From positions 1 through 37,053 of the forward strand of contig CANIUQ010000015.1 of assembly GCA_947470855.1 (NCBI GenBank): a DNA stretch of 37,053 nt, written 5' to 3'. This stretch comes from Opitutia bacterium (GTDB lineage Bacteria; Verrucomicrobiota; Verrucomicrobiia; Opitutales; UBA953). The position numbers were made by a program, and so were the translations under genes. This document shows, in pieces, positions 30,281-31,416 of this stretch (position 1 is the first letter of the stretch; the number at the start of each line of letters is the position of its first letter). The notes under the pieces are model-generated. The model was not told where the DNA came from. It was given only the letters and a program-made list of their open reading frames with translations, and ran no database searches.

Positions 30281-30312
30281 AAAACAAAAAAGGCGCCCAT
30301 CGGGACGCCCTT
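30281..30312 (-). terminator. Intrinsic terminator after glnB
   Basis: Read on the minus strand, AAGGGCGTCCC GAT GGGCGCCTT forms a GC-rich hairpin with two single-base bulges, followed by a run of T with one interruption (TTTTTTGTTTT). It starts 24 bases after the glnB stop and would end the glnB transcript before the OppA-like gene. This is the strongest terminator in the window. Confidence 0.82.
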
Positions 30313-30335
30313 CGTGTTCAACCTAGGTTGTAAAC

Positions 30336-30686
<351 letters not shown>

Positions 30687-30725
30687 TTAGTTTGGTTTGG
30701 GTTTGCGGTTGAGCAAGTCCTCTAA

Positions 30726-30742
30726 TGCAAAGGGCGTGCCAA
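30726..30742 (-). promoter_or_regulatory. Sigma-54 (RpoN) promoter of glnB
   Basis: Read on the minus strand this is TTGGCACGCCCTTTGCA. It matches YTGGCACG-N4-TTGCW at every fixed position. GG (30740/30739) and GC (30728/30727) are at the right 12-base offset for the -24/-12 elements. The predicted transcription start is near 30715, about 41 bases before the glnB ATG, with trpF's stop at 30766 just upstream. Activator sites (NtrC-type) were not identified. Confidence 0.85.
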
Positions 30743-30765: not shown

Positions 30766-31416
30766 TTATGTTTGCTTATTATTAAGCAGTAGGGCCCTAA
30801 CTTCGGCCAGTTTTTCGGCAGATTTGAGCCCTGGAGAGATTTCAACCCCGCTATTTAGGTCAATAAAGTCGGCTGAAGCCTCTAAAGCCCCCTTAAGGTT
30901 CTGTGGGCTTAAGCCCCCTGCCAGAATCCAGGTTTTGTCTGGGTGTGTGTTTTTGAGCGTCTTAAAGCGATTCCAGTCGGCTAATTTACCAGTACCCCCA
31001 AAAGAGTCTTTGGCGTGGGCGTCATGTAAAAACGTATCGGCTAAAGGTAAGATTTCTTCGGGCCACTTTGCACCATCGGGAAGTTTAGGTGCTAACCAAA
31101 GATGAGAGGGGCCAATTTTTTGAGAGATGGCCGCGATGTCGCAGGCTTTGGTGGCTGGATCGAAATGAATTTGGAGAATGGAAAATCCTTCTGCGATAAG
31201 CGAAGTAGCGTCGCTTAGGGTAGGATTAACTGTCACCGCTACGCGTTTGGCTGTAGGAATTTCTCGTAATAAAGATTTTCGATTTTCGGGTTTAACAAAG
31301 CGTGGTGAACCTGGCCAAACATTGACGCCAATAAAATCGGCGCCGCAATCAATCGCCGTGGCTACGTCGGCTACATGAGTTATGCCACAGACTTTGACTT
31401 TGGTAGAACCAATCAT
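30766..31416 (-). CDS. trpF: Phosphoribosylanthranilate isomerase
   Basis: TrpF catalyses the third step of tryptophan synthesis, converting PRA to CdRP. The 216-residue TIM barrel begins MIGSTKVKVCGITHVADVA with the catalytic Cys10 in KVCGIT. It has ADFIGVNVWPGSPRFV, AGGLSPQNLKGAL (phosphate binding) and FIDLNSGVEISPGLKS with the catalytic Asp. No other trp gene is nearby. Its ATG overlaps the hemD stop (ATGA), so it is translated as part of the haem operon. Confidence 0.95.
   Translation of the reverse strand: MIGSTKVKVCGITHVADVATAIDCGADFIGVNVWPGSPRFVKPENRKSLLREIPTAKRVAVTVNPTLSDATSLIAEGFSILQIHFDPATKACDIAAISQKIGPSHLWLAPKLPDGAKWPEEILPLADTFLHDAHAKDSFGGTGKLADWNRFKTLKNTHPDKTWILAGGLSPQNLKGALEASADFIDLNSGVEISPGLKSAEKLAEVRALLLNNKQT

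Follow-up and report, generated by a model that had tools for sequence, protein, structure and literature searches.

The stretch of DNA analysed here (the window) comprises 37,053 nucleotides of contig CANIUQ010000015.1 from an Opitutia bacterium. It carries a gene for a P-II signal protein on the minus strand, with trpF as the upstream neighbour. The features of the locus are as follows.

30288..30313, minus strand: intrinsic terminator after the P-II gene (11-bp stem, then TTTTTTGTTTT)
30336..30674, minus strand: P-II signal protein gene (glnB/glnK family), 112 aa, single copy in the genome (PF00543, E = 5.3e-34)
30675..30715, minus strand: predicted 41-nt 5' leader, G-poor and without a Shine-Dalgarno core (from the sequence)
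30726..30742, minus strand: sigma-54 promoter TTGGCACG-CCCT-TTGCA (exact match and family conservation)
30766..31416, minus strand: trpF, with the candidate activator box in its 3' end (PF00697, E = 6.8e-27)
30773..30788, no strand assigned: palindromic candidate activator box TGCTTAATAATAAGCA inside the last trpF codons, one of two places in the genome at no more than one mismatch

PF00543 spans the full length of the P-II protein, and the translation contains the T-loop tyrosine, Tyr51. An earlier note on this DNA had named the gene glnB. The family part of that name stands, but the protein falls narrowly below both equivalog cut-offs (PRK10665, GlnK, 178.6 of 181; PRK10858, GlnB, 171.6 of 202), so that glnB here means P-II family. 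The strong terminator proposed downstream of the gene was recovered at 30313-30288 with a fold z of -4.35. The gap separating trpF from the P-II gene showed no terminator; transcripts of trpF may therefore continue into the P-II gene to some extent, and the monocistronic unit described earlier is a proposal only. As the note had also stated, amtB and glutamine synthetase genes are not adjacent and are located elsewhere in the genome. The predicted P-II leader is also nearly G-free in relatives (for example CCTAACCCAACCTAACACACCACC) and lacks a Shine-Dalgarno core, and most members of the genus share TTGCTCAACCG at the predicted start. The distance from the -12 element to the P-II ATG is 39-53 nt in most relatives.

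Read on the minus strand, positions 30742-30726 give TTGGCACGCCCTTTGCA, which matches YTGGCACG-N4-TTGCW with 0 mismatches. The near-consensus sigma-54 motif claimed previously is thus an exact one, and its GG (30740-30739, -24) and GC (30728-30727, -12) have the canonical spacing, from which the transcript would be expected to start near 30715. The motif lies, as reported, within the 91-bp gap between the trpF stop (30766) and the P-II start (30674). One further match at two or fewer mismatches was found in the window, and that match has 2. Judged from sequence and conservation, the predicted sigma-54 promoter before the P-II gene is real and conserved; per se it is a textbook promoter of a familiar type.

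The earlier note had proposed a genome-wide motif scan as a check. Across the 1.36-Mb genome, the exact 15-mer TGGCACG-N4-TTGC occurred four times: upstream of the P-II gene, upstream of amtB2 and at two intragenic positions. The intragenic matches were rejected as chance occurrences; one (C2:87614) is antisense in a GreA-like gene and is made by a KDRA coding repeat, and the other (C18:6563) lies inside a sialate esterase-like gene. A site with one mismatch, TCGGCACGCAAATTGCA, upstream of dnaA at C25:3985 is probably also due to chance. The amtB2 gene and its tandem neighbour, amtB1, lie on C7 (C7:33000-39500), each with a -24/-12 site, and such a site is present, with 3 mismatches or fewer, at all 63 family amtB starts examined. 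Glutamine synthetase has a single match in the genome, a 742-aa type III-like enzyme (glnN), with GTGGCACATTGAGTGCT positioned 48 nt before its likely ATG.

Alignment of upstream regions revealed a 16-bp palindrome, TGCTTAAnnTTAAGCA; a blind palindrome count gave no clear winner. At the P-II gene its centre is ~65 bp upstream of the predicted start, and its left half doubles as coding sequence for the trpF C-terminus. At no more than one mismatch the palindrome was found at exactly two places in the whole genome, upstream of the P-II gene and upstream of the gene for an activator that we call EBP1; the five remaining places at two mismatches are near the control level. In relatives, the box lies 120-122 nt (121 ± 1) before most amtB1 ATGs and at about -110 before many amtB2 genes. 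The best box in the amtB1 upstream regions of relatives had 0-1 mismatches in 12 of 23 cases, and no shuffled sequence reached this level. Two boxes were found upstream of glnN. The boxes before amtB1 and amtB2 in the window's own genome are weak (3 and 5 mismatches, respectively), and the P-II box is degenerate in many relatives (3-5 mismatches). Neither the box at 30773-30788 nor the wider regulon had been part of the earlier note.

The genome also encodes the proteins that such promoters call for, as had been predicted. RpoN is complete (483 aa): the AID, CBD and DBD domains are all there and the RpoN box is intact. The protein scored 351.6 bits against TIGR02395, above the cut-off, and RpoN was found in 74 of 79 family genomes. 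There are two GAFTGA response-regulator activators, EBP1 (C10) and EBP2 (C6, next to hemA), and each has a receiver, a GAFTGA sigma-54 AAA+ domain and a Fis-type HTH, in this order for EBP1. The search for rpoN and ntrC was therefore successful for rpoN and partly so for ntrC: the best NCBIfam match of EBP1 is ntrC (TIGR01818), but at 486.9 bits it is below the equivalog cut-off of 558.6. The best NCBIfam match of EBP2 is AtoC. No NtrB kinase was found among the ORFs around EBP1. With a conserved promoter, RpoN and activators in the same genome, RpoN control of the P-II unit gains support at the sequence level.

Near matches to the promoter core are common, with 36 in the whole genome at one mismatch or fewer compared to 23 for the reversed pattern, and almost all of the one-mismatch matches looked at are intragenic. 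The motif alone is thus weak evidence, and could be a functionless coincidence; what counts is where it lies and that it is conserved. Of 47 P-II upstream regions from the family, 45 had a site with no more than 2 mismatches and an intact GG/GC, compared to 0.001 sites per region (~0.1%) in shuffled upstream regions, although the 47 genomes are related and the 45 sites do not represent 45 independent events. In the alignment the site is kept across relatives while the spacer and flanking bases vary, and sites are also present at amtB1, amtB2 and glnN. We therefore regard a functionless chance match as barely credible. The P-II upstream regions of other Verrucomicrobiota, outside the family, mostly lack the site. 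It may also be argued that most P-II transcription is read-through from the hem-trpF genes, with the -24/-12 site adding only conditional transcription. The lack of a terminator-like site between the two genes would allow this, as would the trpF-P-II gene order, which is also visible in aligned relatives. The strong terminator after the P-II gene and the conservation of the -24/-12 site amid drifting surroundings make such a division of labour rather unlikely, and basal read-through and sigma-54 induction of the P-II gene can both be true.

If sigma-54 control is accepted, the activator could be EBP2, or both activators could act, and the palindrome would then be the site of another regulator. 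EBP2 has the same set of domains as EBP1 and is present in all family genomes examined by sequence. However, the palindrome was found before 23 of 28 EBP1-type genes of relatives, mostly at a fixed distance, and before none of 6 EBP2-type genes. The sister genus g4 (G011-G018) also bears on this choice. All eight of its genomes (90-98% complete) are without P-II and amtB (any Amt transporter), RpoN is kept in all eight, and an EBP2 orthologue is present in 8/8 at 54-61% identity, whereas no EBP1 orthologue was found among the activators read in these genomes. The co-loss of P-II, amtB and EBP1 concerns one clade and possibly one event; it points to EBP1 as NtrC in a suggestive way only. Taken with the box before its own gene and the best match to ntrC, it makes EBP1 the likely NtrC and the best candidate for this role in the genome, and control through EBP2 or through both activators appears improbable.

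Collectively, these results make it very probable that a working sigma-54 promoter turns the P-II gene on under nitrogen limitation as part of a compact NtrC-type regulon, with EBP1 acting through TGCTTAAnnTTAAGCA as the most likely activator. The promoter and box appear to form part of a small circuit for nitrogen starvation, which also takes in the ammonium transporters, glutamine synthetase and the regulator itself. EBP1, a response regulator that has an AAA+ domain for sigma-54 activation and a Fis-type domain for DNA binding, would be the NtrC-type activator. We infer that nitrogen status provides the signal and that EBP1 binds the box upstream of the P-II gene, amtB1, amtB2, glnN and its own gene. 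The box-bound activator would trigger open-complex formation by sigma-54 RNA polymerase at the -24/-12 sites, and the box at its own gene would result in autoregulation.

The enteric NtrC/sigma-54 nitrogen regulon comprises glnK-amtB and glnALG, with the NtrC box TGCACCAnnnTGGTGCA (PMC8743547; PMC4987338). The system predicted here shares with it RpoN -24/-12 promoters, a receiver-AAA+-Fis activator and an upstream TGC...GCA dyad, and its candidate targets are likewise P-II, an ammonium transporter, glutamine synthetase and the activator gene. In contrast to the enteric regulon, the box is 16 bp rather than 17 bp, the P-II gene is apart from amtB and beside trpF, the only glutamine synthetase match is type III-like, amtB is predicted to be near-leaderless and EBP1 scores below the ntrC equivalog cut-off. 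The EbpA-RpoN system of Leptospira interrogans similarly has amtB behind a -24/-12 site outside the Proteobacteria and two activators in the genome, but the passages of that report consulted here describe no shared palindrome or conserved leaderless geometry at amtB (PMC5243855). Keyword searches of an open-access library returned no described nitrogen regulon for this mostly uncultured freshwater Verrucomicrobiota group, and a search for NtrC or sigma-54 work in Verrucomicrobia returned nothing matching. The new details would be the divergence of the box and the near-leaderless geometry at amtB, which make the regulon a modestly new one. The analysis provides a sequence-level picture of nitrogen control in this group, and with a likely activator and its box named, direct testing becomes possible.

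The amtB promoters have an unusually close and conserved geometry. In most family amtB genes the C of the -12 element is exactly 15 nt before the ATG, with the rest at ~10 to 20, and amtB1 and amtB2 share the 15-nt spacing despite different sequence between the -12 element and the ATG. Among the amtB of other families of the order that were sampled, few sites were found, all at least 31 nt from the ATG. A pyrimidine and an invariant purine lie 4 and 3 nt before the amtB ATG (CA in 23/23 amtB1 genes; G in 24/24 amtB2 genes, with a pyrimidine ahead in 23/24), and this pair looks like a start site. The ATG itself is a credible start: in amtB2 a signal-peptide-like sequence begins with it, and in amtB1 the first membrane helix follows shortly after it. 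Transcripts would accordingly begin ~3 nt before the AUG. Leaderless mRNAs were defined by a 5' UTR of <8 nt and an AUG start; the 5' UTR predicted from the -12 position is 3-4 nt, and AUG is used in nearly all family amtB genes. Shine-Dalgarno cores were found in 13% of 46 genes of this genome compared to 9% in shuffled sequence, hardly above chance, which matches the report that some Verrucomicrobia are SD-scarce (PMC10783764). Together with the conserved -12/ATG geometry, this scarcity makes a 3-4-nt leader plausible. Many amtB1 genes have a box-like palindrome, TGCTTAATAAAAAGCA, lying across the -12 element and the start site (for example 18 nt before the ATG), as if the activator could repress there too. 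The fixed spacing of amtB1 could partly reflect an operator, yet amtB2 has the same spacing without a palindrome over its -12 element.

On balance, we lean towards the view that the ammonium transporters of this freshwater Opitutales family are translated from near-leaderless mRNAs made from sigma-54 promoters, with the -12 element held at 15 nt before the AUG and an NtrC-type activator that uses a divergent box. Leaderless bacterial mRNAs are known from Sinorhizobium meliloti, where 171 have been described, always with AUG (PMC3616915). The predicted amtB mRNAs resemble these in their AUG and in a translation start at or next to the transcript 5' end. They differ in being predicted for sigma-54 transporter genes with a family-wide fixed -12/AUG spacing; a literature search on sigma-54 leaderless amtB returned nothing matching. 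If correct, transporter synthesis would bypass normal ribosome binding while P-II keeps its leader, and the same sigma-54 regulon would feed two translation modes, fixed across the family. In one member of the genus (G074), C126 carries an additional P-II gene next to a distinct amtB, arranged in the glnK-amtB style, and the separate P-II gene is present as well.
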